Part shown: piece after piece, positions 1-53,024 of the stretch
How positions within the stretch are numbered: the stretch's first letter is position 1
Layout: every line of letters starts with the position of its first letter
Origin: Alteriqipengyuania abyssalis
Lineage (GTDB): Bacteria; Pseudomonadota; Alphaproteobacteria; Sphingomonadales; Sphingomonadaceae
Direction of reading: 5' to 3'
DNA length: 64,000 nucleotides
Assembly (NCBI RefSeq): GCF_019857185.1
Contig: NZ_JAHWXP010000003.1
Location: forward strand, 587,501 to 651,500
Program-made: the position numbers and the translations under genes
The notes under the pieces: generated by a model
The model's input: the letters and a program-made list of their open reading frames with translations, nothing else
Databases searched by the model: none
What the model was told of the DNA's origin: nothing

Positions 1-1
1 C

Positions 2-1198: not shown

Positions 1199-1221
1199 CA
1201 ACTCAGACCAGGGAGCATGGC

Positions 1222-1641: not shown

Positions 1642-1660
1642 CCCGCCCCCAAAGCAAAGC

Positions 1661-1697: not shown

Positions 1698-1754
1698 GTG
1701 CGTGTTGGAATGTCGTTCGGGATCCGACCCGTTGGTGGTCGGAGCGATCGGGCA

Positions 1755-1784
1755 ATCCCGGCCAGCCCCGAGGCTGGCCGGGAT
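1755..1784 (-). terminator. Hairpin at the end of the flgI-flgJ-flgN operon
   Basis: A perfect 13-bp inverted repeat (1755-1767 with 1772-1784) with a 4-nt loop sits 7 bp past the stop of the leftward operon. There is no clear T-run on the minus strand; on the plus strand CGTCTTATTA follows. It probably insulates the two convergent flagellar units. Confidence 0.6.
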
Positions 1785-1791
1785 CGTCTTA

Positions 1792-2214: not shown

Positions 2215-2525
2215 TGAGAACCCTCCTGCATTTTGATCATCTGTTCCATCACCGACGGGGCCAGGCCTACGCCGCCCCGTCTGGCGATTTCCGCACCCAG
2301 CTTTTCAGCCAGGACTCCGCGAAATATCTGCTCGGCATGGCCGCCGGAGAACTCGTCCCCCATTTCGACGCTCTCGAGCATGAGCTTGGACATTTCGCCG
2401 AGGAAAACCGCTTCGAATTCCTCGGCCGTCTTGGCGATCTCGGCGCGCGATGCGCCGGGCGATGCGCCGCTGGGCACCGCCGCCGGCAGCCCCTGAAAGG
2501 GCGTGGCTGAAGCTGCGCTTGTCAT
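2211..2525 (-). CDS. flgJ: Rod-binding protein, FlgJ N-terminal domain only
   Basis: The 104-aa protein matches the rod-binding half of FlgJ: a Ser/Ala-rich lead, then AEEFEAVFLGEM (about residues 34-45), a GGHAEQIFRG segment and a helical tail with GVGLAPSVMEQM. It acts as a rod cap or scaffold in the periplasm. The muramidase domain fused to FlgJ in enterobacteria is absent, as is usual in alphaproteobacteria, so another enzyme must open the cell wall. Starts and stops overlap by 4 bp with both flgI upstream and the flgN-like gene downstream. Confidence 0.88.
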   Translation of the reverse strand: MTSAASATPFQGLPAAVPSGASPGASRAEIAKTAEEFEAVFLGEMSKLMLESVEMGDEFSGGHAEQIFRGVLAEKLGAEIARRGGVGLAPSVMEQMIKMQEGSQ

Positions 2526-3628: not shown

Positions 3629-3711
3629 ATTCTCGCTCCTGTTTACCAAAATGGCTTCCATTTCTTATAGAATAGAGGAGGACAAGAATCGCACTTTGGT
3701 AGGAGTTTATC
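3629..3711. promoter_or_regulatory. Divergent fliX/flgI promoter region
   Basis: This 83-bp AT-rich interval between two divergent flagellar genes must hold both promoters. Around 3673-3684 is a TATAGAAT-like stretch that reads TATAAG on the minus strand. I could not identify a convincing -24/-12 sigma-54 element. Ribosome sites for flgI (AGGAG near 3636) and fliX (AGGAG at 3701) bound it. In Caulobacter fliX and flgI are also divergent. Confidence 0.5.
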
Positions 3712-4128
3712 GTGCAGATCAGCGCGCTTTTGCCTGCCCCGGCCTTGCTTGCGGGGTTCGCCCGCAAGACCCCGACGTTCAGCGTCGGGGAAGAACCGGA
3801 CGTGCCCACCGCACAGGTGCCGCAGCAGCCTGCCGTCCAGCCTGGCCAGCCGCTTGGTTCGGTGCAGATGCTGGTGACTCTTGCCGCCTATGATCCAGAC
3901 CGCGAACGCCGCCGGCAGATGGCCGAACAGGGCTGCGACGGTCTCGACGCGCTCGAAGCGCTGCAGGTGGAACTGGCCACCGGCGAGGTGACGCCAGAAC
4001 GGCTGGAGCAGCTGGCCGAATGGGTCGCTCAGGTCGAGCAGCCCGCCGATCCTGTGCTTGCCGAAATCATCGCCGATATCGAACTGCGCGTGCGCGTCGA
4101 ACTGGCGAAATTCGATATCGAGGTCTAG
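3712..4128 (+). CDS. fliX: Class II flagellar assembly regulator FliX
   Basis: FliX links completion of the early flagellar structure to sigma-54 activator (FlbD) activity in Caulobacter. The 138-aa product has a Pro-rich variable N-terminal third and a conserved C-terminal part: D-R-E-R-R-R-Q-M, a G-x-D-A-L-x-A-L-Q-like stretch, and the ending EIIADIELRVRVELAK. It starts at GTG with AGGAG at 3701 correctly spaced. The divergent placement next to flgI is the same as in Caulobacter and supports the call. FlbD itself is not in this window. Confidence 0.88.
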   Translation: MQISALLPAPALLAGFARKTPTFSVGEEPDVPTAQVPQQPAVQPGQPLGSVQMLVTLAAYDPDRERRRQMAEQGCDGLDALEALQVELATGEVTPERLEQLAEWVAQVEQPADPVLAEIIADIELRVRVELAKFDIEV

Positions 4129-4173
4129 GCCCTCGCCCACCGGCACAAGGCACGGGGCACAAAGGCGCGGTTC

Positions 4174-5238
4174 CTACCGCCCGCCTTGCGCAAGCTTCAT
4201 CACGTAGGAGATGATTTCGGCCACGGCGAGGTAATGCTCTGCCGGGATCGGCTGATCGAGCTTGGCGCTGGCGTGCAGTGCACGCGCGAGCGGCGGTTTC
4301 TCGATGATCGGAATGTTATTGTCTTTCGCGATCTCGCGGATCTTCAGCGCAACCGCGTCGACACCCTTGGCGACCACGACCGGCGCGGCCATCGCGCCGT
4401 GATCGTACTGCAGCGCGACCGCATAGTGGGTCGGGTTGACGATCACCACGCTCGCCTGCGGGACCTTGGTCATCATCCGCCGCTTGGCGCGTTCCATCCT
4501 GATCGCGCGCACCTTGGCCTTGATCAGCGGGTCGCCCTCGGCATCCTTGTGCTCGTCCTTGATCTCCTGCAGCGACATCCGCATCTTCTTCAGGAAGGCG
4601 CGCCGCTGATAGACGAAATCGGCGGCGGCGAGCGCGGCGACCATGATCGTCGCGGCCATGACCATCCGGAACACCAGATCCGCCGCGACCTTGCCGACCG
4701 CGTGCGAGGGCGCCCCGACCAGTGTTTCGATCCCGCGCGCATGCGGCCACACCACGATCAGCGCGACCCCGGCAACGAGGCCGAACTTCGCCAGCGTCTT
4801 GGCAAACTCCACCAGACCCTGCTTGCCGAACATGCGCTTCAGGCCCGAGCCGGGGTTAACCTTGCTCCATTTGATCTTGAGGCGCGACAGGGCCAGCGTG
4901 GGCCGACCTTGCAGGAACAGCGTGAGCAGCGCGAAGAACATCAGCATGCCGAGCAGCGGGCCCAGCGCGAGCCCGACCTGGCCCATCAGCAGGGCGGCAA
5001 AGGTCTGTCCGCTACCGCGAACATCCAGCTCGTCCGCCCCGCCCCACAGGCTGACGAAGACCGTCAGCATGCGCGAGACCGACCATGCGCCCATCCCGCC
5101 CATCACCACGATCGCGGCGACGAACATGCTCGCGTGGCGCATCTCCGGCGCGCTGGCGACGTCGCCCTTCTTGCGCGCATCGTCGAGCTTCTTGTCGGTT
5201 GGGTCGTGCGTCTTCTCGCCGGAATCGGATTGCGACAT
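4174..5238 (-). CDS. flhB: Flagellar export gate protein and substrate switch FlhB
   Basis: FlhB is an inner-membrane component of the flagellar type III export gate that switches export from rod/hook to filament substrates. The 354-aa protein opens with the family's GEKTHDPTDKKLDDARKKG, has four hydrophobic segments between residues about 35 and 210, and a cytoplasmic domain with the autocleavage site NPTH at residues 268-271. It ends the leftward fliE-fliQ-fliR-flhB group, only 3 bp after fliR. All key residues are present. Confidence 0.97.
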   Translation of the reverse strand: MSQSDSGEKTHDPTDKKLDDARKKGDVASAPEMRHASMFVAAIVVMGGMGAWSVSRMLTVFVSLWGGADELDVRGSGQTFAALLMGQVGLALGPLLGMLMFFALLTLFLQGRPTLALSRLKIKWSKVNPGSGLKRMFGKQGLVEFAKTLAKFGLVAGVALIVVWPHARGIETLVGAPSHAVGKVAADLVFRMVMAATIMVAALAAADFVYQRRAFLKKMRMSLQEIKDEHKDAEGDPLIKAKVRAIRMERAKRRMMTKVPQASVVIVNPTHYAVALQYDHGAMAAPVVVAKGVDAVALKIREIAKDNNIPIIEKPPLARALHASAKLDQPIPAEHYLAVAEIISYVMKLAQGGR

Positions 5239-40938: not shown

Positions 40939-40952
40939 TGGCGGAGCGGGAG
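40939..40952 (+). repeat. Left attachment site (distal att)
   Basis: TGGCGGAGCGGGAG, the same 14 bases in the same orientation as the 3' end of tRNA-Ser at 52934-52947. Flanking bases differ on both sides. It marks the element end farthest from the integrase. Confidence 0.8.
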
Positions 40953-41038
40953 TCCGCCTCACATATTCCGTAAGTACCTACATATCATGAAAGATTCTTA
41001 GAGGAGAAACATTTTCTCCCACAATTCTTACCACGGAA

Positions 41039-41062
41039 GCTAAGCGCCATCCGGCGTTTAGC
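41039..41062 (-). terminator. Hairpin after the exported-protein operon
   Basis: Arms GCTAAGCGCC (41039-41048) and GGCGTTTAGC (41053-41062) pair with one wobble around a 4-nt loop, 15 bp past the last stop of the leftward operon. The T-tract is weak. Confidence 0.5.
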
Positions 41063-41077
41063 GCGTTGCGCCCCGGG

Positions 41078-41668
41078 TCAGCTCAGGCGTGCCGAAGCTA
41101 CCAATTGCTCGAAATGCGGCAAGTCTCGCTCGAAAAAATAGATCGTCGGCGCCTCGAAGGTCATCATGAAGAGCTCGCCGTCGATGATCGTAGCCACAGC
41201 CCTCCCTCGTCTGCGAATATCGTCGTTGCCCACAGTTGAAAACGAGACGCTCACACCAGGTTGGCCGAGAAAGGTGGTCGGCGCTACCGAGTCTACCGAG
41301 AAAGTCTGATGACCCTTAGCAATCCTCATCGATGAGTTAAGAAAGTCAGGCAGGTCGATCAGCAGCATGTTTCCGGAAAATCTTGGCAACGGGCTGTTTC
41401 GCTTATCAACTTCGCGGAAAATGGCGTCGCCGTCTTCGACCTCTGCAAAGAACAGGACATCGTTCAGCAATTCGCCATCCAACGTCCAGCGTTCAGCCTC
41501 TTTCCCCGGACGCTCGTTGATCCGGTTCCAGTCGATGGCCGGAACCACGGTCAGATCGGACTTTGCAACTGTGACGGTTTCGCCAGCATCGATAAGTTTA
41601 TGGGCGGCTGCCGGAACGGTAGGCACCATGAGCAGACCGGACGCGATCAAAAGGAAAGCGCGCATCAT
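41078..41668 (-). CDS. Exported protein of unknown function, last gene of the M48 operon
   Basis: A 196-aa product with a signal peptide (MMRAFLLIASGLLMVPTVPAAA) and no other membrane segment; the mature part is mixed alpha/beta with no Cys. Its start overlaps the stop of the M48 peptidase gene by 4 bp, so both are made together. The sequence contains FSGNMLLIDLPDFLN and VSVSFSTVGNDDIRRRGRAVATIIDGELFMMTFEAP, the latter reading as an antiparallel sheet. I do not recognise a family. A role as substrate, inhibitor or partner of the peptidase is inference. Confidence 0.78.
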   Translation of the reverse strand: MMRAFLLIASGLLMVPTVPAAAHKLIDAGETVTVAKSDLTVVPAIDWNRINERPGKEAERWTLDGELLNDVLFFAEVEDGDAIFREVDKRNSPLPRFSGNMLLIDLPDFLNSSMRIAKGHQTFSVDSVAPTTFLGQPGVSVSFSTVGNDDIRRRGRAVATIIDGELFMMTFEAPTIYFFERDLPHFEQLVASARLS

Positions 41669-42861
41669 TCTTCTCCGACCAACATTTGGAGCATGGGGGC
41701 ATCTGGTGCGTCTGGCACGCGCTCTAGATAATTCTGCAGGGCAGATCGGCCATCTTCGGCTTTTCCGCTGCGAAGCAAGGCAAGGCCTAATCCTCTCCAG
41801 GCCGAAGCGGCTTCTGGATCAAGTTCGAGAGCGTTCTGATAGAAATTCGCCGCACTGACCATGTCACGTGGATTCCCTCGCGCGCGATAGAGTTCACCCT
41901 TTGCGTAATATAGGTCAGCGGTGAACTCTTCTCCCCCAAGCCGATCAATCACATAGTCCGTCCCGCCAAAGTCATTCATGGCCAATTCGTCAGCAAGAAA
42001 GAGAGGCACCCAGTCTTTCATCGCCTTCCTGTGAGTTGCAAAGCCGTCAAATTCGCCACCGCTCACACGATTGGCCAACGCACTGAGTTTGTCCGCCCGC
42101 TCCAAGCTGGTCGGATGGCTCGCGAAAAACGCGACCCCATCGTATCTTTTCGTGCGGCGACCTCGATCTATGGCGGTTTGGTCAGACTCATTCATAACTG
42201 ACCGCCAGACTTCCGGCGCAGCCGATGGCCGATAGCCAGCATTGGCCATGTAAGCGAAGCCAAGCGTATCAGCGTCGCGTTCTTGGTCCCTTTTGAAGCT
42301 GTAGAGCCCGCCAAGGATTGACCATTGAGTGTCATATACGCTTGGCCCAGTGCCACCGTATGAAGCCGCAACCGCTCCCAGTAGCGCAGTCCATGCCATT
42401 GCATCACTGCCGCGTCGTGCAGCCTCGAAGCCTCGCAATGTATGTCGTAACTCGAAATGGGCGAATTCGTGTCCGAGGATTGAGGCGAGTTCAGCCTCGC
42501 TTCGCACTCGTAGAAGAAGCCCCGAATATACCCTCATCGTTCCGTTGGGCGACATCGAAGCGTTAAATGCAGGCACCCGCAAAATGTATATACGGACACT
42601 CTGGCAACGGTCGTCTCCGACAGTCTTACACAGGACCGAACGGACATACTCGTTTAGCGCCGTGTCACGGATGACGAGGTCAGATTGCGCGAGTGCTCGC
42701 TCACTTTCGTCATCCATTGCCCAGAGACCGCGCTCGTCCCTATCTTGGGGTTGGTATGCCCCGGACCAGGTCGGTAGTTCGAACTCATTGTCATCGGCCA
42801 ACGCACTAGTTGCAATCAAACCGGCGGCGGCGAAAATCAGCGGAAGGTGCCAGAAGCGCAT
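41665..42861 (-). CDS. Exported M48-family metalloprotease with TPR tail
   Basis: The ATG at 42861 shares a base with the upstream stop (TGATG); frame extension to 42984 is rejected. The 398-aa protein has a signal peptide (MRFWHLPLIFAAAGLIATSALA), zinc site H-E-F-A-H in ASILGHEFAHFELRH, the third ligand region RDQERDADTLGFAYMANAGY, and a C-terminal TPR-like helix pair (ASAWRGLGLALLRSGKAEDG). This resembles periplasmic BepA/LoiP-type M48 enzymes that trim or fold outer-membrane proteins. Its location in an integrated element with two other exported proteins is unusual. Confidence 0.88.
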   Translation of the reverse strand: MRFWHLPLIFAAAGLIATSALADDNEFELPTWSGAYQPQDRDERGLWAMDDESERALAQSDLVIRDTALNEYVRSVLCKTVGDDRCQSVRIYILRVPAFNASMSPNGTMRVYSGLLLRVRSEAELASILGHEFAHFELRHTLRGFEAARRGSDAMAWTALLGAVAASYGGTGPSVYDTQWSILGGLYSFKRDQERDADTLGFAYMANAGYRPSAAPEVWRSVMNESDQTAIDRGRRTKRYDGVAFFASHPTSLERADKLSALANRVSGGEFDGFATHRKAMKDWVPLFLADELAMNDFGGTDYVIDRLGGEEFTADLYYAKGELYRARGNPRDMVSAANFYQNALELDPEAASAWRGLGLALLRSGKAEDGRSALQNYLERVPDAPDAPMLQMLVGEE

Positions 42862-43616
42862 CACTGCTCTCCCGACCCATCGGTAACAGGAAGCGGGAAA
42901 TCTTCGAACAATTGGCGGACGCGCTTCTCCGCACCATCCGCCTCGCGGACATCGCCACCCATCTGAAAGTCGGCATTGATCCAAAGAATGTTGCCGGTCT
43001 TCAAATCGATCAATGCAGCGTAGCCAGAATGAACCCCAGAGGTAACGCCCACTCCCACTGTTACTGCTGCCAAGATTTGTAGAGCCTTGCGACCGGTCGA
43101 GCCGTAATGGTCTTCCGTGCTGATAAACAGTGCGTAATCGGCTTGATCAGCCCCGGGCAGTTCCGCAACGCCTGGCCCTAGCGACCAATCAAAAACATCT
43201 TCGCGGTTGTCCGCTTTCTTCGTTTCCAAACGGTCGCCTCTGAAGAACTGATAGGTGATTATCGAGTTTGAAACCGCGCTGAATAAGGCGAGATACTCGT
43301 CAACTAGCCGTGCGTCCTCTCCGATCGGCTCGGGGGCATCGATAAGCGAGCTACCGTAGCGACGCCGCTGCACATCCAATGCACTGCCGATGTTCTCTCT
43401 AGCGAGTTCGGTCCAGTCAGCTCGGGGTTCGAACATCCCGCCTGTCGACTGTTCTCCGACCTTGATACGAGGTCGAAAGACAAGGATGCGCGTGTCGGTC
43501 CCTAAGGTCGAAAAATCGAAATCGTGCCGGACCGCCCCCCTCTCTTGCGCGCTAACTGGCGATGCAAGCAGCAGCGCCGCCATTCCTAGGAACACGAACA
43601 AGCGACTCAACAGCAT
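42861..43616 (-). CDS. Exported protein of unknown function, first gene of the M48 operon
   Basis: The ATG at 43616 has AGGGGG upstream and gives about 251 aa with a signal peptide (MLLSRLFVFLGMAALLLASPVSA). The C-terminal part reads ALQILAAVTVGVGVTSGVHSGYAALIDLKTGNILWIN, a hydrophobic strand or helix followed by a pattern seen in lipoprotein-like envelope proteins that report on their own environment. It has no lipobox. It joins the M48 gene through TGATG. The longer frame to 43694 lacks a signal peptide start. Confidence 0.75.
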   Translation of the reverse strand: MLLSRLFVFLGMAALLLASPVSAQERGAVRHDFDFSTLGTDTRILVFRPRIKVGEQSTGGMFEPRADWTELARENIGSALDVQRRRYGSSLIDAPEPIGEDARLVDEYLALFSAVSNSIITYQFFRGDRLETKKADNREDVFDWSLGPGVAELPGADQADYALFISTEDHYGSTGRKALQILAAVTVGVGVTSGVHSGYAALIDLKTGNILWINADFQMGGDVREADGAEKRVRQLFEDFPLPVTDGSGEQ

Positions 43617-43714
43617 GAGACCCCCTACCCCATCTGAATTCGAAAGACTTACGGCGGATTCCGCGTAGGTCAACGAGGCAATTTCGCGATGCATCTTCTA
43701 TAGGTTGGAAACGC

Positions 43715-44101
43715 TCAGCACCAACCGCGCCTATCCCCCCATCGCCGCGCGAGCCCTTCGTTTACAAGGCTCTCACCTAAAGAAATGCTCGACCGACTGA
43801 CTGTGGCCAATGTTCGGCCATATCGATCTTTACCATGTGTGGTGAGGGAGAACGCCCCATCGTTTAGCAACTGCACCAGCCGCAGTGTCGCAGCATCGCC
43901 AAGCAGGGCCTCTCGTTCGCATTCCGGTTGGCTCACCTCAGGTGCGTCGATGTCAGCAACTCGATATTTTACGCGGTGTAGCCAGAATGTGTCCCCGTCC
44001 ACTACGCAAGTTACCCGGCGCTCGGAGCCACAAATTGTGAACTGCACTCTTTCAGCGTCGACCTGTATAAAAGCAAGAAGTGCCGCAGCCAAACTTAGCA
44101 T
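43715..44101 (-). CDS. Thermonuclease (SNase) family protein
   Basis: A 128-aa staphylococcal-nuclease-fold protein. It has the calcium/catalytic elements VVDGDTFWL, YRVADIDAPE (with Arg and Asp), E at CEREALLG, and DRYGRTLA. The N terminus (MLSLAAALLAFIQVDA) is hydrophobic and could be a signal peptide or anchor. It starts 7 bp inside the end of the preceding nuclease-like gene, so the two are coupled. Thermonuclease-family genes are frequent on mobile elements; the target is not evident. Confidence 0.87.
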   Translation of the reverse strand: MLSLAAALLAFIQVDAERVQFTICGSERRVTCVVDGDTFWLHRVKYRVADIDAPEVSQPECEREALLGDAATLRLVQLLNDGAFSLTTHGKDRYGRTLATVSRSSISLGESLVNEGLARRWGDRRGWC

Positions 44102-44529
44102 TGCGCCTCTTGCAAAGCCTTCAGCTTCGTAATTGCTACCATATGCTTATTGTCTCGCCCTGAATAGCGCGCCACAGCCTTTACCTCCGCAAACGAGCCG
44201 TAGTAAATTTCTGACCAATCGCCATCGGTCTCGACTTTCACAACCAGGAGAAGGTCAGCCTCGCCTCTGAAACCGATTTGGCTTGCCGCGTGATTAGCTT
44301 TGATTTGGACCGTCTGCCCATCCGGCGTCGTGGCATCGAAGCCGTCCGACCCGGCTGGCGCTTTGGCGAGGCCGTAAGCTTCAATGGCCACGTATTCTCC
44401 GTAGTCGCCCAGCAAGTTACCCAGACCTGCCCAGCGGAACTCTGGCGCGAGAGAACGTAAAGCGTTCTGCGCTGAGAACAGAGTCGCCATGATATGCTTC
44501 ACGGCCTGAAGATCTGAACCTACCGCCAT
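44095..44529 (-). CDS. PD-(D/E)XK nuclease-like protein
   Basis: The ATG at 44529 has GAGGGG five bases upstream; the frame upstream to 44580 is not needed. The 144-aa product has N-terminal helices and then a segment of the PD-(D/E)XK pattern: GDYGEYVAIEAYGL (Glu), GSDGFDATTPDGQTVQIKA (Asp and the Q-I-K) and a following strand ADLLLVVKVE. Similar domains of the DUF6998 kind occur in defence islands. It overlaps the SNase gene by 7 bp. The nuclease activity is inferred from fold motifs only. Confidence 0.72.
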   Translation of the reverse strand: MAVGSDLQAVKHIMATLFSAQNALRSLAPEFRWAGLGNLLGDYGEYVAIEAYGLAKAPAGSDGFDATTPDGQTVQIKANHAASQIGFRGEADLLLVVKVETDGDWSEIYYGSFAEVKAVARYSGRDNKHMVAITKLKALQEAQC

Positions 44530-44539
44530 TTTCCCCTCA

Positions 44540-44836
44540 TTATCGTCGCTCGGATCTGTACGCAGGCGACACAAGGCCATCCGCCAATTCGGCCTCGGGA
44601 AAAGCTTTCACGAATGCCAGAGCTACTCGTATGTCACGGAAATAGAACGCCGCCGTGTGGCAAGCCAGGCCTGGCTGACTATGGCAAGCATGGTTGCGAG
44701 GTCCGACTGTCTCATTAAGCCAACCCTGCATTGAGCCGAGCGACTTGCCCAACCCATCGGGCGGTACTCGCACCTTCACGCGAATTGGAAAAGCGAGGTC
44801 GTCGCGTTTCGCCTGTCGAATCGAATGAGCCGTCAT
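44540..44836 (-). CDS. Small mobile-element-associated protein, unknown function
   Basis: From the ATG at 44836 this is a 98-aa protein (MTAHSIRQAKRDDLAFPIRVKVRVPPDGLG...), basic at the N terminus, with GWLNETVGPRNHACHS and ALAFVKAFPEAELADG. The frame is open to 44962, but that part is Arg-rich and overlaps the next gene, so I prefer the inner start, which lacks a strong ribosome site. I recall similar short proteins next to mobile genes in alphaproteobacteria but cannot give a function. Confidence 0.6.
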   Translation of the reverse strand: MTAHSIRQAKRDDLAFPIRVKVRVPPDGLGKSLGSMQGWLNETVGPRNHACHSQPGLACHTAAFYFRDIRVALAFVKAFPEAELADGLVSPAYRSERR

Positions 44837-44946
44837 GAGCGGAACATGGCGGGAACATTCAACACGGACAATCCCTCGCGCGCGCGGGCGAAAAAATGGT
44901 TTAGCGAAAGCGACGCGTTTCGCCGCCGGTGTACGGACTTGTAGCC

Positions 44947-45588
44947 TCAGAGATTTGACCACCCCTCCCCCGGCTCACCCTTAAACCGGGTCAGCATTCC
45001 CGCCATCTCAAGCGAGCATTGTTCATCTAGCTCCCAAAATGTTTCCATGTGGCGCTCATAGGTGCGGTGCCACATGCCTTTCGGTCTGGTCGGCACATTC
45101 CCCCAGCCGAGCTCACAACCTAGCTTCTTCTGAAGTCTGAAAAGCCGCTCAAAGGGCTTGTCTCTCGCCGCGTCCCGCTGCGACTGATAACCCAGCCGCC
45201 AAGCCCGGCGACAAGCAAACCGATCACCCCCTGGTGGAAGGTAGAGCTTGCCCACACGGATATGCCGATAAGGGCAAATCATCCACCATCGCTTGCCGCC
45301 ATAATTGGGCTCAGTGAAGATGAGGCGGATTGTTTGATTGACACGCTCAGTATCCTCACCGCTGCCCCGCGAATAATCCAGCGTCAGCCGCTCGCTCCCC
45401 GGCGCATCCATAGATGCCCGATAGCCAATGGAACCGCTCGGAGAACCGTTGCAAGTCCAGCTGAGAGTGCCTTGTCTATAATCGCCCTCTCGCGCCAAGC
45501 CCCGGCGCATCATCCACACCAGATCGATCCGCAAGCATTGCTCAGCAATCGGCCTCCCGCCGTAGCGCCCAGAACCAAAACCGCCCAT
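44947..45588 (-). CDS. 213-aa protein, mobile-element-associated, unknown function
   Basis: A soluble 213-aa protein beginning MGGFGSGRYGGRP, with a basic Gly-rich start, a mid part containing IRLIFTEPNYGGKRWWMICPYRH and YLPPGGDRFACRRAWRLGYQSQRD (a C-P...C-R arrangement that may hold metal), and a helical C terminus. A second, broken copy of its first 30 codons lies at 47757-47850 in the same element. Such proteins recur in alphaproteobacterial elements near rep-like genes; I know of no assigned function. Confidence 0.72.
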   Translation of the reverse strand: MGGFGSGRYGGRPIAEQCLRIDLVWMMRRGLAREGDYRQGTLSWTCNGSPSGSIGYRASMDAPGSERLTLDYSRGSGEDTERVNQTIRLIFTEPNYGGKRWWMICPYRHIRVGKLYLPPGGDRFACRRAWRLGYQSQRDAARDKPFERLFRLQKKLGCELGWGNVPTRPKGMWHRTYERHMETFWELDEQCSLEMAGMLTRFKGEPGEGWSNL

Positions 45589-45756
45589 AGCGAAACACTA
45601 GCAGCAGACGATTCGACCTGCTAATATTTTCCTAAATCATTAGTAGAATTTGCGACGATGTGATGCGGCGAAATTAGGGACCTACTAGCGCCTATCGCGA
45701 GGTCGTCTACCAATTACTAGCTTGATCTCAAACTCTTCAATTTGGGAGTAAATTAC

Positions 45757-46077
45757 GTGCGAGACACAGAGCGCCCCCCCCCCACCAAGTTCAATTTGAA
45801 CCCGAGAAAAAATCGTCGTCCGTTGGGTGAGCCAACCGCGAAGGTTATGTCCGCAATTATAGTGTCCGCTGGAATCGTCGGCGCATCACTCATTATTCGG
45901 TTAGAAGACCCTGCGCCTCGATACCAACTCGTCAATGTAGGCGGTGGAGATACGCATCGAATTGATCGTGAAACAGGGACGGTTTCCTTGTGCTTCACGG
46001 GTGGGTGTGTGGAGCTTCAAGAATTTAATGAAGGAGAATTGGTCGAGGGGAATATAATATGGGACGCCGAGGACTGA
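45757..46077 (+). CDS. Small membrane protein of unknown function
   Basis: The GTG at 45757 has GGGAG eight bases upstream and yields 106 aa. A Pro/Asn/Arg-rich N terminus precedes one hydrophobic helix (VMSAIIVSAGIVGASLIIRL, about residues 30-49), followed by a C-terminal domain with GGGDTHRIDRETGTVSLCF, probably outside the cytoplasm, and an acidic end. It is the only rightward gene in this part of the element and is rich in A and T. Not recognised. Confidence 0.6.
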   Translation: MRDTERPPPTKFNLNPRKNRRPLGEPTAKVMSAIIVSAGIVGASLIIRLEDPAPRYQLVNVGGGDTHRIDRETGTVSLCFTGGCVELQEFNEGELVEGNIIWDAED

Positions 46078-46131
46078 ATTGCTCGATGATCAGTTTTAGT
46101 GAGATTTTGAGTTATCCTCGCCGCTTACCGG

Positions 46132-46430
46132 TTATCGCTTCGCCATCGCAGAGCGAGTTGACCCCAACGCCTCGCGTGTCTCTCGCTTTGCTGCCTTGAG
46201 GATATAGCGAACCATTTTCTCGGCATTCGGATGAAATTGTCTTATTGCCCTTGAGCTGAGAAAGCCGCCCGCCGAATACCGTTACCCTGCTCACACCGGC
46301 GCGGTAAGTGCCCCCAGCCGCCACAATCCATCCCCGCGTGCGGTTCTTAGGGCTCAGCCCGGCTGGCAATTGCATCACGATATGCACGTGCTCGCCCTCG
46401 CCGCTCGCAGGTTTCGCACTTTCCTAGTTC
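46132..46430 (-). pseudogene. Decayed second copy of the HUH rep-like gene (3' part)
   Basis: The minus strand from about 46430 to 46132 parallels the end of the rep-like gene at 49069-49794: HIVMQLPAGLSPKNRTRGWIVAAGGTYRAGVSRVTVFGGRL, then after a frameshift AEKMVRYILKA and a stop at 46132. The H-x-H motif and the later Tyr are retained but in different frames, and the 5' half is missing. It is clearly a relic, not a working gene. Confidence 0.8.
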
Positions 46431-46507
46431 CAACATTGAATGCACCAAATTGCCTCGCTTGGTCCAAGTCCGGCTATTGAAATCGAGCAATGAGTTGCAC
46501 TCACCGA

Positions 46508-47590
46508 TCAACGGCACGATCGACGCATATGTGGCGCAACTTCCTCGAGATTTGATGTCGGAATCCGGTATGTCCAGCCGCCGAATTCTTCCAAAAAAGC
46601 ATGAGGAAGATCGACATCAAGTACCAATCGATTGTTTGACGCTTCGGCCATCGAAATAGCCCGATGTACTGGTGCGAGGCTTACAAGAATTAGCCCATCA
46701 TCCGAGGTCACATCCACGACTTGCAAATCGTATCGGATGCTAGTCCCATCAATCTCAAGTGCCACGCCCCTGATCGATTTAGCTACTTCCTCGATCCTTC
46801 GGGTGCGGACCTGAAAGCCGACATGCATCAATCCGCAATCGAGAATAACGACAAGCCCCCGACCGTTCGCTTGCTCCTGAACCGTCTTCGCAATCAATCG
46901 GTCGTCTAATGGCTCCAAGGACCATTTACTTGGCTCAAAGCTCGCTCGATATGTAAGTAAATTTACGCTCTCTAGCTCTAGTCGGTCTAGCCATGCCATT
47001 TCATCAGGCTTGGTTGCTGAAGCCAAGGCAAGCACCACCGGATCAACACCCATCGACATCGTATAAGACTGGAGCAATGCCACTAGGCTCTGGGTTTCAG
47101 ACGTCGTAGCACTCGTCTGGCTAATATCGTCAGCTTCCGGAGCGAACTGGTGAACTCCGATGAGGCTTCCATCCTCCATTTCACGCGTCACTCCGCCCAT
47201 CAGCACAAACACGCAAGCGCTCGCGCAGACGCCCTCTCGCGCAAGCTCTATGTTATCGTAGATCCCGTATGGCTCCTCTTCACTCTTGTAGGTCTCGGAT
47301 ACGATAACGTCGAATTCTCGATCACGGATCAATTGCCCCAATTCGAGAGCAGCAGCCAAATTTCCACCCGGAGAATTAATCCGGATAAGGTTTAGATAGT
47401 CGATTTGCTCTGCTTCAATGAAGGCAAGCAACGCAGCTGCGTCGCCTTCTTCAATCGTGCCTTCTGCCGCGATCCAAGCGCAAGTTGAGCAATTGCCGCC
47501 TTGATGGGCAAAGCTGAACTCCAAGGCGTGAAGCGGGGCCGACCAAGTGGCTAACATACCAAATAGAAGCCAAAGTAGCCTAACTGCCAT
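46508..47590 (-). CDS. Exported ClpP/crotonase-fold protein
   Basis: A 360-aa protein with a signal peptide (MAVRLLWLLFGMLATWSAPLHA), then a ClpP-like domain (about 25-190): LIRINSPGGNLAAALELGQLIRD, GVCASACVFVLMGGVTRE and IGVHQF. In ClpP-like enzymes the serine follows such an A-S-A-C region; here SACVF supplies Ser or Cys near that point and His follows in GVHQF. The C-terminal 150 residues are unassigned. This matches predicted periplasmic ClpP-like proteins (COG3904 type). The ATG at 47590 has AAGGTGG upstream. Confidence 0.78.
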   Translation of the reverse strand: MAVRLLWLLFGMLATWSAPLHALEFSFAHQGGNCSTCAWIAAEGTIEEGDAAALLAFIEAEQIDYLNLIRINSPGGNLAAALELGQLIRDREFDVIVSETYKSEEEPYGIYDNIELAREGVCASACVFVLMGGVTREMEDGSLIGVHQFAPEADDISQTSATTSETQSLVALLQSYTMSMGVDPVVLALASATKPDEMAWLDRLELESVNLLTYRASFEPSKWSLEPLDDRLIAKTVQEQANGRGLVVILDCGLMHVGFQVRTRRIEEVAKSIRGVALEIDGTSIRYDLQVVDVTSDDGLILVSLAPVHRAISMAEASNNRLVLDVDLPHAFLEEFGGWTYRIPTSNLEEVAPHMRRSCR

Positions 47591-47694
47591 TGCACCACCT
47601 TATCACGGAAGAGTGCCGACTTTAGAAAAAACGCGCTCTCGCGCAACGCAAACCAGGCAAGGCTCGAGCGACCGCTGATGCTTACGAACTCAAA

Positions 47695-47850
47695 TTCTGC
47701 GTTCGCCCGCATCGCTTGCCCATAATTCGCCCGGAGCAGCCCGCACGTGTCAGTGACAATCCCTGGCGCATCATCCACGCTAGGTCGATCCGCAAGCAAT
47801 GCTCAGAAATCGGCCTTCCGCCGTAGCGCCCAGAACCAGAGCCATCCATC
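47695..47850 (-). pseudogene. Fragments of two island genes
   Basis: From 47850 to 47757 the minus strand matches the first 30 codons of the 213-aa gene at 45588 (DGSGSGRYGGRPISEHCLRIDLAWMMR), then stops matching. From about 47735 to 47695 the sequence parallels the last codons of the rep-like gene (region 49084-49120). Both are short relics side by side. The 347-bp interval 47591-47937 contains no intact gene. Confidence 0.75.
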
Positions 47851-47937
47851 TTTAGAACCTACGGAATGGCTGGAATCACAGCCAGTGATTTTCCTAGATT
47901 ATTAGGGAAATCCGACCATCTGAACGGCCACGAACGG

Positions 47938-48516
47938 TTACAAACTCTCTATATGCGGCTTGAGCATGGCAGCGAGTTTGGGCAAGCCATTTGTCTGCAG
48001 GTGAAGAATGAAGCCATCGGGTTGATATGGTGGATTTGTGTAAGCCCTACGCATTCGCCGCATCGCTTTGAGCGCCTCTGCCTCATAGAGCTCAAACGTG
48101 CTAGCTAGGAAATCATCTGCCGAGACAGCACTGAGGCCGTATTCTTCTAACGTTTCGAGTGGGAAATCTTTCAGATTATCTGTGACAATTTGCTCAGCTC
48201 CCACGACAATCGCGGTTGCAAGCACGTGTCTGTCACCGGGGTCTGGTAGGACCAAACCTTCGACTAGGTCCTGGCCACCGTCCACACAGGCTTCGGGAAA
48301 TGCCTCCGCCATCGCTGCAATCTGGGATTCGACACTTTCCCGTAAATCAGGCTTCAGTTTGAGCAGATTGCGCGTCCATTCATCAAGTATTTCGCTTGAC
48401 CAGCGCGCTCGAAACAGCCCCGCCTCGGCGAACCGAAGCAGGGCGTCTCGCTTTGTAAATGGGAATAGAACGTTCGCGTCTAGAACGACCACAAACCTGT
48501 CAGCGATGTGGCTCAA
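47938..48516 (-). CDS. PIN-domain toxin-like ribonuclease
   Basis: A 192-aa PIN protein with the four acidic positions of the nuclease site: Asp in VVVLDANVLFP, Glu in SSEILDEWTRN, Asp in LPDPGDRHVLATAIVVGAE, and Asp in IVTDNLKDFP. A helical C-terminal extension of about 60 residues follows. It overlaps the preceding HTH gene by 4 bp, the usual layout of a toxin-antitoxin pair in which the antitoxin comes first. RNA targets are unknown. Confidence 0.88.
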   Translation of the reverse strand: MSHIADRFVVVLDANVLFPFTKRDALLRFAEAGLFRARWSSEILDEWTRNLLKLKPDLRESVESQIAAMAEAFPEACVDGGQDLVEGLVLPDPGDRHVLATAIVVGAEQIVTDNLKDFPLETLEEYGLSAVSADDFLASTFELYEAEALKAMRRMRRAYTNPPYQPDGFILHLQTNGLPKLAAMLKPHIESL

Positions 48517-48965
48517 GCTGCATCTGCCTCCTGTCCCAGTTGCTGCATTCGATCCAAGGCCGAGGAGCGCGCTGTGTCTCGCTTTCTCTTGTAAGCAAGA
48601 ACATCCTCAGATTTGACCCGCCGATGCGATCCAACTTTGTGGAAGTCGATTTCCTGGTCATTCAAAAGCTTGATCAAATGTGGTCGCGAGACGTTAAGAA
48701 GGTCAGCTGCCTGATTTGTGGTCAATTCAGCGCCGTAAGGTACGAATGTAACCATCTCCTCTCGCGACACATGAGCGAGCAAGTCTAGCACCAGCTGACC
48801 TAGAGCCTTTGGAAGCTCGATCCTCGTCGTCTCTCCATTCGAAGTGACTTGGATGGGCAAAGCGCCTGCAGGAGTGAGCGCCGAGGCGAGAGCTTCAAGA
48901 GCCTCACCCGCCTTTTGCGCCTCATCCTCGGTAGGGGGACGCATCGCTTCTGCTTGATTAGACAT
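48513..48965 (-). CDS. HTH excisionase-type protein, probable antitoxin to the PIN protein
   Basis: The ATG at 48965 has GGAGAG five bases upstream; 150 aa. After a helical N terminus comes a MerR/excisionase-type helix-turn-helix: LTTNQAADLLNVSRPHLIKLLNDQEIDFHKVGSHRRVKSEDVLAYK. It precedes and overlaps the PIN gene by 4 bp. Proteins of this kind serve as antitoxins that also bind their own promoter, and a direct repeat lies just upstream. An alternative start at 48998 is less likely. Confidence 0.85.
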   Translation of the reverse strand: MSNQAEAMRPPTEDEAQKAGEALEALASALTPAGALPIQVTSNGETTRIELPKALGQLVLDLLAHVSREEMVTFVPYGAELTTNQAADLLNVSRPHLIKLLNDQEIDFHKVGSHRRVKSEDVLAYKRKRDTARSSALDRMQQLGQEADAA

Positions 48966-49013
48966 ATTTGCTCTCCGTGGTGGCCAATCGTGATCCATAT
49001 ATAGCCAATCTGG

Positions 49014-49040
49014 ATAAGTGCAATATGTGAAATAAGTGCA
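49014..49040. promoter_or_regulatory. Direct repeat upstream of the toxin-antitoxin pair
   Basis: ATAAGTGCA occurs at 49014-49022 and again at 49032-49040, 18 bp apart centre to centre, 50-75 bp before the antitoxin start, in AT-rich sequence. The spacing of nearly two helical turns is suitable for a dimeric autorepressor. This is inference. Confidence 0.5.
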
Positions 49041-49068
49041 TTAAACGTAAACGGGTGTCAGATGTCCA

Positions 49069-49794
49069 TTAACGCGGCTGCAGATTTTGCGTCCGCCCGC
49101 ATCGCTTCCCAATTATCGCACCGCCTTCGCCAGAGCGCGGCAATCCCAGCCGCTCACCCGCCTCAGTCTTCCCTGCCTTAAGGATATAGCGAACCACGTT
49201 CTCGGCATTCGTGTGCGATCGTCTATTCCCCTCTGCTTTAGAAAGCCGACCGCCTATCACAGTCACCTTGCTCACACCGGCACGGTAAGTGCCGCCAGCC
49301 GTCACAATCCATCGCCGCGTCCGGTTTCTGAGGCATATCTCGGCTGGCAGGTGCATAAGGATATGAACGTGCTCGCCCTTGCCGCTCGCGCGTTCCCTAA
49401 CCCAAATTGCGGAGAGGCTCCCGCCCTCCCTTCGCGCCTGCTTGCTGACAAGGTCTAAAAGCTTGCCGACAAACCTAGCGCCGTCGCTCGGCTCAATATC
49501 GGCTAGCCCATAGTGGACAGCCCAGTGCCGCTGAAAAACTCGCCCGGTCTCAAAGGCGTAAGCGGCTGCCCCCATCAGCATCGCAAGCTGACGATTGGAG
49601 AGGAAATCGCTAACCCGATCCGCACGGTTACGAGCGCCGCCCCACGTGCCATTCCCGGCCTGTCTCGGCTGACCAAGGTCGCAACTTAGAGTATCACTAT
49701 AGTTTGCAATCGCCGTGCCAAAGTCGTCTGCTCGTCCGTTATCCGCCGCTATCAAACGGTTTGCCCCAGCGTGCAGGAAGGCGTTCTCTGCCAT
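49069..49794 (-). CDS. HUH-motif protein resembling a rolling-circle replication initiator
   Basis: A 241-aa basic protein. The middle has FQRHWAVHYGLADIEPSDGARFVGKLL, then GSLSAIWVRERASGKGEHVHILMHLP, in which H-V-H-I-L-M-H-L-P is an HUH-type metal motif, and later ENVVRYILKAGK with a Tyr placed as in single-Tyr nicking enzymes. GAVIGKRCG-like text (GGAIIGKRCGRTQN) closes it. Relatives I recall from alphaproteobacteria are annotated only as hypothetical or replication proteins. If correct it nicks DNA to start replication or transfer of the excised element. A degenerate second copy lies at 46132. No strong ribosome site is seen at the ATG. Confidence 0.65.
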   Translation of the reverse strand: MAENAFLHAGANRLIAADNGRADDFGTAIANYSDTLSCDLGQPRQAGNGTWGGARNRADRVSDFLSNRQLAMLMGAAAYAFETGRVFQRHWAVHYGLADIEPSDGARFVGKLLDLVSKQARREGGSLSAIWVRERASGKGEHVHILMHLPAEICLRNRTRRWIVTAGGTYRAGVSKVTVIGGRLSKAEGNRRSHTNAENVVRYILKAGKTEAGERLGLPRSGEGGAIIGKRCGRTQNLQPR

Positions 49795-49863
49795 GACGGT
49801 GAAGTTTCAAGATTTGGCAAACGGGGCGCGTTCACCCAGCTGGGCCGACGCACCCCGCTCGAT

Positions 49864-50121
49864 TTAGCTCTCAGAGCCCGTTTCGGGCACGCCGAGAGCT
49901 TTTTCTTCCGCATAGGCGGTGAGGGCCCGCGCGAGGTCCGCGACTGCATCGATCGGCATGGTGACGCCCTTGCTCGTCGCGGTGTCACCATGCTGTCCTG
50001 CCCAGAGGCGAAGCTCGAAGAAGTCGCGCCCCTTGAACTCGCGCTCACCGGCGACCAGCCGCCCTTCGCGCTTTTGCAGTTCCCAGACGACGGGAGCGGT
50101 AAAACCGGGAAGCTCGCTCAT
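49864..50121 (-). CDS. PC4-like ssDNA-binding protein
   Basis: An 85-aa protein whose core, GREFKGRDFFELRLWAG followed by ATSKGVTMPIDAVADLARALTAY, fits the PC4/YdbC fold (strand with aromatic, K-G-V, then a helix). PC4-like proteins bind single-stranded DNA. It overlaps the upstream winged-helix-like gene by 4 bp and precedes the HUH gene, which would also act on single strands; a shared role in replication is inference. The exact N terminus (MSELPGFTAP) is well placed. Confidence 0.6.
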   Translation of the reverse strand: MSELPGFTAPVVWELQKREGRLVAGEREFKGRDFFELRLWAGQHGDTATSKGVTMPIDAVADLARALTAYAEEKALGVPETGSES

Positions 50122-50498
50122 GCCGCCTCCCTGTTTTCGCCCTGTTCAATCACGCTACCGATGGTCGAGAGGCGATAGCGCGCGTGGCGATATTCACCTT
50201 CAATTTCGGTGCTGATTGCCAGCCTATCTTCGCGCATCGCGTGGATCGTACCACCAAGCCGGGTGTGCCAGGGGAGCGTATCCCACTGGGTCAGACCATC
50301 GCGCTTGGTTGCCAGCAAGAAGAGAACCCGCGCCCGCTTGCCGCGATAGCGCCAGACGCGCCCTTCGGAAGAGCGGAAGGCCACTTGCGGCTTGTCATGG
50401 GAACCTTTGTCGGCGATATGCGGGTTGTCGATTGCTACCACGCTTTTCGGCTGGCCCTTGGACGTTGCCGCGTCCGGGGCCTTTACTTTGTCTGCCAT
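50118..50498 (-). CDS. Winged-helix-like protein of the integration module
   Basis: The ATG at 50498 has GGAGGCGG upstream and overlaps the AlpA stop (TGATG); 126 aa. An Ala/Lys-rich lead is followed by KPQVAFRSSEGRVWRYRGKRARVLFLLATKRDGLTQWDTLPWHTRLGGTIHAMR, a pattern typical of a winged helix in which a gene-product family of this size recurs behind alpA in alphaproteobacterial elements. DNA binding is inferred; no function is assigned. It overlaps the PC4-like gene by 4 bp. Confidence 0.6.
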   Translation of the reverse strand: MADKVKAPDAATSKGQPKSVVAIDNPHIADKGSHDKPQVAFRSSEGRVWRYRGKRARVLFLLATKRDGLTQWDTLPWHTRLGGTIHAMREDRLAISTEIEGEYRHARYRLSTIGSVIEQGENREAA

Positions 50499-50689
50499 CA
50501 GGCCGCCTCCCCCTGATAGTCGGGAAGCGCATTCGCCCAAGCCATCGCATCGGCGCGAGCAATCCGCGTTGCCACTCCGAACTTACGAATTTTCAGGCGA
50601 CCGGCATTCACCTCGCGATAGAAAGAGGTCTTGCCGATAGAGAAGCGGTCGCAAAATTCCGCGACCGTAAGCAATTCAGGAAGGTCCAT
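50498..50689 (-). CDS. AlpA/excisionase-type DNA-binding regulator
   Basis: A 63-aa helix-turn-helix protein: LLTVAEFCDRFSIGKTSFYREVNAGRLKIRKFGVATRIARADAMAWANAL, the MerR-like winged HTH of AlpA, which in P4-type elements activates the integrase and favours excision. It starts 137 bp after the stop of a 263-aa gene and is followed without gap by the winged-helix-like gene. This is the usual position for such a switch in P4-style elements. Confidence 0.88.
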   Translation of the reverse strand: MDLPELLTVAEFCDRFSIGKTSFYREVNAGRLKIRKFGVATRIARADAMAWANALPDYQGEAA

Positions 50690-50708
50690 TTGTCTTAGTC
50701 CTAGCTGC

Positions 50709-50727
50709 GCACGGAAAACCTCCGTGC
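50709..50727. promoter_or_regulatory. Inverted repeat upstream of alpA-like gene
   Basis: GCACGGA (50709-50715) and TCCGTGC (50721-50727) form a perfect 7-bp inverted repeat 20 bp before the alpA-like start. It could be an operator for AlpA or a repressor, or a small leader hairpin. Confidence 0.45.
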
Positions 50728-50826
50728 CGGACCCGGCGAATGCCGTGGTGCTGCTAGGGATAATTGCGACGGGTGCGAAACGCTGTCAGATAGTTTGAAC
50801 CTCGGCGGCACGAGAATGCCCGACGC

Positions 50827-51618
50827 TTACCAATTCTGGTACGCTTCCCACAAAACGGCCTGCCGATCAGGAGTCTCCCTCTCTTGCATTCGAACGAATG
50901 CACAAGCCTGATAGAACCGCTGCCAATCATTTGCTTGCTCGATTGGAACGTGCGCCGATCCACCATCCGGCTTTGGCGCAAGACCAAATTCGCGATGAAA
51001 AATCGTGAGTAATCTAGTAGCCAAATCAATTCGGGAATTGCGGAGCGTCTTTTCTCGCCACCGTGGCGCTTGATGGTGCTCAGAGAGCCAGGCGGAAACG
51101 ATTTTGTGCGATTTAATTAAAGCGTCCAGCATACGAATGTTGTCGTTCGTAGCCGCCTTCGACAGCATTGCTGCGACGGAAAAATCGATACTGTGATTAA
51201 ATTCAAAAAAAGTAGGACGCAGCGCCTCGAGTTTTCCAATGCAAGCATCAACCTCGCGCCTCAACTCGGCATACCCCTTTCGAACGTCCGGCACATCGAA
51301 TTGCACGAAAATCAAGTCCAACTCGAAGAGGAAATTGCTCCAGCCGGACACGGGCTCAAGCTCGAAATTGAAATCACGGAAAGTTTCTCGAATGGCGGCG
51401 TGCCTAACCTCGCTGGTGGCCATCCACCCGATATGCTCAGCCCCTCGGAGCATTTCGATGTTCTGCGGTCTGAGGGCATCAGCGTAGGCATCGACATATT
51501 CGCGCGGGGTGAGGTCTCCTAAATCTTCCCGGCTAAGAAACGCCTCGACGCGCTGATTGTGCTTCTGTTGTCGCGATTGCCATTCGTCATTTTGTTCCGG
51601 AAGGTTCTCATCCTTCAA
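50827..51618 (-). CDS. 263-aa protein of unknown function, coupled to the integrase
   Basis: A soluble, acidic, largely helical 263-aa protein with many Trp and Phe residues (SGWSNFLFELDLIFVQFDVPD, RPTFFEFNHSIDFSV). No signal peptide or known motif. Its start overlaps the integrase stop by 4 bp, so it is translated with the integrase, an unusual place for cargo. Codon use is more A/T-rich than in the integrase, suggesting it was acquired separately. Possible regulator of integration or a defence function; neither is shown. Confidence 0.72.
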   Translation of the reverse strand: MKDENLPEQNDEWQSRQQKHNQRVEAFLSREDLGDLTPREYVDAYADALRPQNIEMLRGAEHIGWMATSEVRHAAIRETFRDFNFELEPVSGWSNFLFELDLIFVQFDVPDVRKGYAELRREVDACIGKLEALRPTFFEFNHSIDFSVAAMLSKAATNDNIRMLDALIKSHKIVSAWLSEHHQAPRWREKTLRNSRIDLATRLLTIFHREFGLAPKPDGGSAHVPIEQANDWQRFYQACAFVRMQERETPDRQAVLWEAYQNW

Positions 51619-52790
51619 GTTGCCAACCGAACGACGTTCCCGCCGCTCGCTCCCTCACAGTAGGCGGCCCATGCAGCCATAAGCTCGCGCCGCTTTTCCA
51701 GCATTGATCCACGCTGATAGGCTGCAACCGTCTTATCGCCAACGACATGGGCCAGCGCGGCCTCTGCTAGCTCGGCTGGCCAATGCGTCTGCTCGGCAAC
51801 CCAATCGCGGAACGTGCTGCGAAAGCCATGTGGCACCTCATCGCGGCCCATGTCGCGCATCACCTTTGTGAGCGTCATATCGCTTAGAGGCTTGCCTCGT
51901 CGCTGCCCCGGAAAAACCAAATCGCTATCGCCGCGCCTATGCGCCTTCACTCGCTCGAATAGGGCAACCGCTTCTGGCGATAGTGGCACAACATGCTCAC
52001 GCCCTGCCTTCATGCGCTCGGCTGGGATTGCCCAAGTCGCCGCGTCGAGGTCTATCTCACTCCATTCGGCCAGCCGCACTTCGCCAGAGCGCGCTGCGGT
52101 GAGGATGACAGCCTCCAGCGCTAGCCTCCCCATGCTTTCGCCTTCCCGTAATTTTCCCATAAATTCGGGAAGCTCGGAATAGGGCAATGCCTTGTGGTGT
52201 TTCGGCTGAGCGCGCTGTTTGGGTAGGGCTTTGTCTATCACCGGCAACGCAAGGCCGCTATCGCGGTAGCCCTTAGCAACCGCCCAATCGATCACCGTGT
52301 TGATGCGCTGGCGCAACCGGCGAGCGGTCTCGGGCTTCTCCAGCCAAATCGCAACAAGAGCATCGCGTACCGCCGCAGCGTCCACGCTAGCAACAGATCG
52401 ATTGCCGAACGCGGGGAATGCGTAGGCCTCTAGCGTAGTGATCCATTGCCGCGCGTGTTTCGGGTTTTTCCAGCTGGGCGCGTTCTCGGCATGCACCAAT
52501 CTGGCCGCTTCCGAGAATGTGGGAATGCCCGCCGCCTTCTGGCGCTCGGCAACCGGATCAATGCCTACCTCGATTTGCGAGCGAACTTCCGCCGCTCGCT
52601 CTCGTGCCAATTTCAGCGAAACTTTTTTGGCGCTCCCCAGCCCAATGTCGCGCCGCCGCCCGTCTTTCTGGACCCGAACTATCCAGCTCTTGCCGCCGCG
52701 CTTTCCAATCAGGAGGAAAAGCCCGTCCCCATCGCCATACCGTCCTGGCTCGCTCGCGGCCTTCACCGCCGTCGCCGTAAGGCTCCCCAT
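51615..52790 (-). CDS. int: Tyrosine-type site-specific integrase, P4 family
   Basis: The ATG at 52790 (MGSLTATAVKAA) gives 391 aa; a longer frame reaching 52847 is unlikely. Domains: DUF4102-type arm-binding N terminus (GDGDGLFLLIGKRGGKSWIVRVQKDGRRRDIGLGSAKKVSLKLARERAAE), SAM-like core-binding domain, and catalytic domain with Arg in TAARSGEVRLAEWSEID, H-x-x-R in PHGFRSTFRDW, His in LAHVVGDK and the Tyr nucleophile in TVAAYQRGSMLEKR. It lies 144 bp from the tRNA-Ser it recognises. Confidence 0.95.
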   Translation of the reverse strand: MGSLTATAVKAASEPGRYGDGDGLFLLIGKRGGKSWIVRVQKDGRRRDIGLGSAKKVSLKLARERAAEVRSQIEVGIDPVAERQKAAGIPTFSEAARLVHAENAPSWKNPKHARQWITTLEAYAFPAFGNRSVASVDAAAVRDALVAIWLEKPETARRLRQRINTVIDWAVAKGYRDSGLALPVIDKALPKQRAQPKHHKALPYSELPEFMGKLREGESMGRLALEAVILTAARSGEVRLAEWSEIDLDAATWAIPAERMKAGREHVVPLSPEAVALFERVKAHRRGDSDLVFPGQRRGKPLSDMTLTKVMRDMGRDEVPHGFRSTFRDWVAEQTHWPAELAEAALAHVVGDKTVAAYQRGSMLEKRRELMAAWAAYCEGASGGNVVRLAT

Positions 52791-52933
52791 TGCCGAATAC
52801 TCCCACGCTTTCTCCCACACGATAGCGCGAGCGGCTGGGAACGGCAAGGTCCGCGCCGGAACCGCAGAGGCGCATCAAGCCTCAGGTTTTGTCAGGTTTC
52901 ACGAAAGCTAGGGAATGGCCACGAAAGGGCGAT

Positions 52934-52947
52934 TGGCGGAGCGGGAG
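52934..52947 (+). repeat. Right attachment site within tRNA-Ser 3' end
   Basis: TGGCGGAGCGGGAG, covering the CCA, the 3' acceptor strand and the first T-stem bases; the same 14 bases occur at 40939-40952. Confidence 0.8.
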
Positions 52948-53024
52948 GGATTCGAACCCTCGATACGGGGTTACCGTATACACACTTTCCAGGCGTGCGC
53001 CTTCGACCACTCGGCCACCGCTCC
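52934..53024 (-). tRNA. tRNA-Ser(GGA)
   Basis: A 91-nt class II tRNA on the minus strand. The acceptor stem GGAGCGG pairs with CCGCTCC, followed by the discriminator G and an encoded CCA. The anticodon loop CTGGAAA gives GGA, a Ser anticodon. A long variable arm and the T-loop GGTTCGAATCC are present. The 3' end is the integration site of the adjacent element and stays complete. Confidence 0.97.

Follow-up and report, generated by a model that had tools for sequence, protein, structure and literature searches.

The 64,000-nucleotide stretch of the Alteriqipengyuania abyssalis genome analysed here (contig NZ_JAHWXP010000003.1, positions 587,501 to 651,500; hereafter the window, numbered from its first letter) carries a small element of 11,995 bp between two 14-bp att copies, inserted in a tRNA-Ser(GGA) gene. 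Beside the tRNA gene lie six leftward genes, in the order integrase, a 263-amino-acid (aa) open reading frame (ORF), AlpA, a winged-helix-like gene, a PC4-like gene and a 241-aa ORF of the HUH family. The last of these is predicted to encode a replication initiator (Rep). It appears to have its own promoter, and an origin-like box shared with relatives in other genomes lies just ahead of it. The features on which the argument is built are the following.

52934..53024, minus strand: tRNA-Ser(GGA), the integration target (ARAGORN; element-free right flank colinear in nine congeners)
52934..52947, minus strand: attL core within the 3' end of tRNA-Ser(GGA) (direct repeat and congener comparison)
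51615..52847, minus strand: tyrosine integrase, alternative ATG start at 52790 (Pfam Arm-DNA-bind_3, Phage_int_M and Phage_integrase, 1e-16 to 1e-25)
50827..51618, minus strand: 263-aa ORF, an orphan sequence in an iolg-like position, overlapping the integrase gene by 4 bp
50498..50689, minus strand: AlpA/excisionase-like HTH_17 protein (Pfam HTH_17 7.7e-7, above cut-off; TIGR01764 8e-6, just under its cut-off)
50118..50540, minus strand: winged-helix-like protein (weak HTH_91 match, E 0.0049, below cut-off; homologues in several loci)
49864..50121, minus strand: PC4-like single-stranded-DNA-binding protein (Pfam PC4 9.3e-6, above cut-off)
49818..49861, minus strand: strong hairpin in the gap between PC4 and HUH, resembling a terminator and/or an origin (-39.7 kcal/mol)
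49802..49810, minus strand: box TTGAAACTT, candidate double-strand origin or Rep site (35 of 50 loci)
49705..49720, minus strand: sigma54 (-24/-12) promoter consensus TGGCACGGCGATTGCA (12 of 12 positions)
49069..49794, minus strand: HUH-family replication initiator, 241 aa (HUH motif 49351-49371; Tyr203 codon 49186-49188)
40939..40952, minus strand: attR core CTCCCGCTCCGCCA (direct repeat of the tRNA-Ser 3' end, after which the native tRNA-Ser downstream sequence follows)

The degrees of confidence given below for the HUH Rep, the excisable element, the sigma54 promoter, the box as origin and the phage route are our own judgements and were not computed. The 241-aa protein contains the residues H142-V-H144-I-L-M-H148 with Y203 downstream, as an earlier note on this DNA had read them. 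That note also proposed a check on the conservation of the His pair and the Tyr, and the check bears it out. E134, Y203, K206, G229 and R231 are invariant in 41 aligned homologues, which places an unchanging YxxK (Y203, K206) downstream of the HUH motif, and H142, H144 and H148 each reach 90% conservation or more. Of the 41 homologues, 31 match Pfam REP_ORF2-G2P, with a best value of 1.4e-8; the window protein's own match falls below the cut-off. The AlphaFold model of the protein (predicted local distance difference test, pLDDT, 85.5; predicted template modelling score, pTM, 0.80) has PDB matches that include SIRV1 ORF119, parvovirus NS1 nuclease domains and IS200/605 transposases (TnpA), the best E of 0.007 not being strong. 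A viral structure library returned microvirus and G2P Reps at E ~1e-4. The structure search thus gave viral Reps and HUH nucleases with no confident non-HUH fold, and the order of HUH motif and then Tyr is as in Reps. We regard the protein as almost certainly an HUH Rep. It would nick a single strand at a specific origin, for which the sequence offers a candidate site only.

The same chemistry could serve an integrative and mobilizable element, in which a Rep-like relaxase would nick an oriT at TTGAAACTT and a helper conjugation pore would export the element. Rep-like relaxases are known (MOBT, PMC6499999), the conjugal transfer of a plasmid can be supported by its own rolling-circle replication Rep (PMC5714925), and a hitchhiker would be expected to come without transfer genes of its own. 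However, the Tyr follows the HUH motif in a YxxK as in Reps, the HUH protein matched a replication family only and no relaxase or Mob family, no coupling or accessory Mob gene was recognised, and the plasmid collection holds no homologues. Weighing the two sides, we consider a mobilizable element unlikely and keep to a replication initiator.

The six genes are all present as the earlier note named them and in its order, the winged-helix gene on a weak HTH_91 match only. Its description of a single module, mostly coupled by 1-4 bp overlaps, does not survive. Overlaps of 4 bp are found at two of the five junctions (integrase/263-aa ORF and winged-helix/PC4), an AlpA/winged-helix overlap holds only with TTG at 50540 as the start, and the 263-aa ORF is 137 bp away from AlpA. 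The HUH gene is set apart from the PC4 gene by 69 bp, with the strong hairpin inside this gap, and probably has a sigma54 promoter of its own. The hairpin energy refers to a 75-nt region and corresponds to z = -5.0 against mononucleotide shuffles.

Homologues of the HUH protein were found in 46 of 401 Sphingomonadaceae genomes, about one in nine of the species genomes sampled, and sporadically in the rest of the class (8 of 385 genomes, including this one). In nearly all relatives a strong hairpin lies ahead of the box, often with a T-rich stretch after it, terminator-like. The box itself, a 9-mer found by k-mer counting, is present in 35 of 50 loci against an expectation of 0.0006 per locus, as a single copy or an inverted pair, and always just upstream of the HUH domain. 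The sigma54 consensus TGGCACGN4TTGCW, counted at 11 or more of its 12 positions, occurs in 31 of the 50 loci on the rep strand (expected 0.0012) and in none of the 50 on the opposite strand. In most loci it lies downstream of the box at a spacing of 88-91 or 67-71 nt. L103 and L111, two homologous loci from another family of the class, also have the box, followed at 88 nt by a promoter that matches 12 of 12 positions. Seen from the HUH domain, the sigma54 site occurs in each of the three reading frames, and it is thus conserved as a DNA signal.

The two signals were joined in a composite pattern, TTGAAACTTN{57,84}TGGCACGN5TGC, for a blind search of 401 genomes of the order. The pattern matched 14 genomes, once each, and all 14 matches lie directly upstream of an HUH gene; seven of them are outside the set used for motif discovery. 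The reversed control gave zero matches in the 401 genomes. This DNA signature finds such elements without a protein search (14/14 correct). The composite pattern was also run on IMG/VR, where it hit eight contigs, none with an HUH or integrase homologue; by a rough estimate this is about what chance would give in a collection so large, and these candidates were discarded.

The genome of A. abyssalis contains five perfect TGGCACGN4TTGCW sites. Three lie in the flagellar gene cluster, a fourth is flanked by pspA and pspF, and the fifth is the rep site. The psp and flagellar-cluster sites are what we take to be typical sigma54 targets. The sigma factor gene rpoN is present in this genome and in all 39 other host genomes tested. 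From these sequence data, a real sigma54 promoter ahead of rep is very likely. All 25 hosts tested contain a PspF that passes the curated cut-off, but no PspF site was found, so that PspF as the activator is neither supported nor refuted.

The role of the box is less certain than the promoter. Instead of serving as a Rep origin, it could act as the enhancer of the sigma54 promoter, the site for its activator: it lies upstream at two spacings about two helical turns apart, and in one subgroup it occurs as an inverted pair, as enhancers do. Yet the box is kept in loci that have no sigma54 site, among them the tRNA-Thr/Leu/Glu subgroup, and in one locus (L054) it sits downstream of the promoter-like site. 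Moreover, the genome as a whole has just two occurrences of TTGAAACTT with a C or G after it, neither of them at the psp or flagellar sites. The enhancer is a possibility that we take seriously but hold to be rather unlikely. Because the box persists without the sigma54 site in that subgroup, and because of its position in L054, we prefer the origin, and judge from its sequence context that the box is probably where Rep acts. A resemblance of CTTG^A to the phiX174 nick site is possible but found no confirmation in the literature. With the box, this group of Reps, only loosely covered by Pfam, has a predicted origin.

The sigma54 site also bears on where the HUH protein begins. It lies inside the annotated N-terminus, in the region where the AlphaFold model has low confidence. 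A canonical start codon is present at or after the expected transcription start in 21 of 30 loci, and in four loci (L043, L046, L050 and L066) a start exists only at or after that point, as an upstream stop closes the frame. The protein of the window probably starts later than the annotated ATG, and translation may leave out the first 30-50 residues of the ORF.

The boundaries of the element are well defined. The last 14 bp of the tRNA gene (minus strand) are repeated at the far end, and a search that tolerated up to one mismatch found no third copy of this core in the window. In congeners the tRNA gene and the right flank are colinear without the element, and the sequence GGCCGATCCGAT after the left att copy resembles the one that follows tRNA-Ser in congener L094. 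The G+C content of the island is 0.53-0.59, compared with about 0.65 in the surroundings. We conclude with high confidence, from the att sites and the element-free congener sites, that this is an excisable tRNA-bounded element, and the excision proposed in the earlier note gains support. In relatives the insertion sites are mostly tRNA genes, and the att-bounded members measure 4.4-12 kb, many with a repeat that begins exactly 14 nt from the 3' end of a tRNA-Ser gene.

The gene order recurs in part. In 46 of the 50 homologous loci an integrase gene precedes the HUH gene on its strand, which places the module far from chance, and AlpA is found in many loci. An ORF overlaps the integrase stop by 4 nt in 19 of those 46 loci, and most of these ORFs fall in separate, unrelated families. 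The 263-aa ORF of the window gave nothing usable in Pfam, PHROGs, NCBIfam or PADLOC, and ORFs unrelated to it fill the same integrase-overlapping position in relatives. Of the int-alpA-wHTH-PC4-HUH order that had been predicted for other genomes, int-alpA-...-HUH stands. PC4 is detectable by similarity in only a few relatives, and its part as a defining partner of the HUH protein is not supported. The element is a member of a widespread and apparently undescribed family; its type was not found in the open-access literature, subscription papers and preprints being outside the scope of the search. Eight genomes (G254, G299, G305, G315, G326, G358, G382 and G082) have two HUH homologues at different places.

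Taken together, these observations suggest how the element may live. Int and AlpA would excise it from tRNA-Ser(GGA) as a circle, as its anatomy implies, and the Rep would nick the circle at or beside TTGAAACTT, upstream of its own gene. Rolling-circle replication would then proceed through the single Tyr203, for which the fold and residues are in place, presumably by way of single-stranded intermediates. The hairpin would insulate rep from the upstream genes, and rep would be transcribed from the sigma54 promoter, presumably remaining silent until a host enhancer-binding protein fires. Transfer would most likely occur by hitchhiking on a helper phage, since no capsid, primase or conjugation gene was recognised in the family members examined. 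We favour this account of a small integrative element excised by Int/AlpA, copied by rolling circle, switched by sigma54 and carried by a helper phage, with moderate confidence as a whole. The phage satellite as transfer route is its tentative part, plausible without our calling it probable. The earlier idea of a satellite or integrative plasmid is supported to that extent.

Several points weigh against this account. The sigma54 site is not found in all loci, the tRNA-Thr/Leu/Glu subgroup having the box without it, and no enhancer site was identified for the promoter. In the window and its closest relatives, the part of the HUH frame that leads from the sigma54 site to the conserved domain has no ATG, GTG or TTG; L034 and L035, like the window, have no start codon at or after the expected transcription start. 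Searches of the phage, plasmid and IMG/VR collections returned no homologue of the HUH protein and gave no direct sign of packaging. An autonomous integrative plasmid, excising and replicating by rolling circle without a helper and spreading solely by natural uptake or generalised transduction, would equally have Int/AlpA, Rep and an origin-like region, and no feature points to a particular helper. Nevertheless, such elements are widespread as integrated copies in distant genera and absent from the plasmid collection, which suggests a dedicated route, and a sigma54 switch suggests conditional rather than housekeeping replication. Such a plasmid seems improbable to us. A more specific form of the helper-phage account would make these elements new minimal phage satellites of Alphaproteobacteria, with a rolling-circle replicase under host sigma54 and phage-shock (PspF) control that senses phage attack via a host stress sensor and amplifies from the conserved box for packaging; in that detail we find it doubtful. 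More generally, the shared origin-like box and sigma54 promoter suggest small elements of a phage-hitchhiker-like kind, whose replication is set off by a stress signal or a regulatory signal from the host.

The closest analogue is PICMI, the phage-inducible chromosomal minimalist islands of Vibrionaceae, with the order int, iolg, alpA, small gene and replication gene (PMC10803314). Like these islands, the element is small and has int, an int-overlapping ORF of unrelated families, alpA, small gene(s) and a replication gene. Integrase and AlpA (PF12728) are close together in the window element, several members have defence cargo, and no capsid or transfer genes were recognised. In contrast, an HUH Rep stands here in place of the DUF3987/DUF5906 primase, and tRNA genes in place of fis, so that by its defining features the element is not a PICMI. 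Furthermore, rep is behind a sigma54 promoter, the host is from Sphingomonadaceae, and the helper phage is a presumed one. The element may nevertheless work like a PICMI. The timing of satellite replication was left open by the PICMI authors (PMC10803314); if sigma54 controls the replicase, this would explain concretely, and in a way open to testing, when a small satellite-like element replicates.

Other systems share single traits. In pSAM2, the rolling-circle Rep acts on the excised circle. The pSAM2-type integrative and conjugative elements of actinomycetes (PMC3218068) are likewise tRNA-integrated, with a tyrosine integrase and a rolling-circle Rep (predicted in our case), whereas here no translocase gene was recognised and both the Rep family and the host class differ. 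Inovirus and microvirus Reps (REP_ORF2-G2P) have the HUH-then-Tyr fold and gave the best viral structure matches; unlike those viruses, the element has no recognised coat, Zot or other virion genes, and its Rep is carried by an integrase island. Jumbo-phage-transduced genomic islands (PMC12595487) are also integrase islands with defence cargo and no transfer genes of their own, but use a tmRNA site in Pseudomonas, and the abstract on them does not mention an HUH Rep with a sigma54 promoter.

The remaining part of the element is cargo.

40953..49068, no strand assigned: cargo half of the element (helix-turn-helix (HTH)-PIN pair, ClpP-like, decayed HUH copies, 213-aa GSGRYGG protein, DUF6998, SNase, M48 peptidase)
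48513..48998, minus strand: excisionase-type HTH protein (TIGR01764 3e-14; 4-bp overlap with the PIN gene)
47938..48516, minus strand: RSP_2648-type PIN-domain protein (NCBIfam 6.9e-44, below its cut-off; Pfam PIN_3 5e-10)

A scan of 18 window-element proteins found no DUF3987/DUF5906 primase. For 99 cargo ORFs, family matches were tallied and the 25 commonest families listed per library. Among these listed families there was no capsid, terminase, relaxase/Mob or type IV secretion system (T4SS) family, and they include type IIG restriction, Abi, SRAP and Y-family polymerase genes. Neither the scanned window proteins nor the listed families contained conjugation machinery.

Two decayed partial HUH copies lie in the same element (window 46112-46413 and 47691-47766), one of them in fusion with the beginning of a GSGRYGG-type gene, which suggests element stacking or internal duplication. 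They could also be taken as signs of a dead island, in which the HUH gene and its promoter are remnants and nothing moves any longer. However, int, alpA, rep, the box, the promoter and both att sites appear intact, and we think a dead island quite unlikely; an element still able to excise and replicate remains the preferred reading.

The GC skew is about -0.1 on the plus strand and limited to the element (window 41000-53000), for which gene orientation or asymmetric replication may be the cause. In congener G102 (L095), the sequence of window 1-4335 sits about 2 kb from the same tRNA-Ser, so that an extra ~36.6 kb (window 4336-40938) lies between the tRNA gene and this flank here, either a second, larger island or a rearrangement. 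Among the cargo genes, the overlapping HTH and PIN genes (window 47938-48998) resemble a toxin-antitoxin pair. In PADLOC, the DUF6998 protein (window 44095-44580) weakly matches methyl-directed type II restriction enzymes, and it is possible defence cargo. The 213-aa protein (window 44947-45588) starts with MGGFGSGRYGGRP, belongs to no Pfam family and recurs downstream of the HUH gene, with homologues in L034, L035, L046, L061, L065 and L071-L073.

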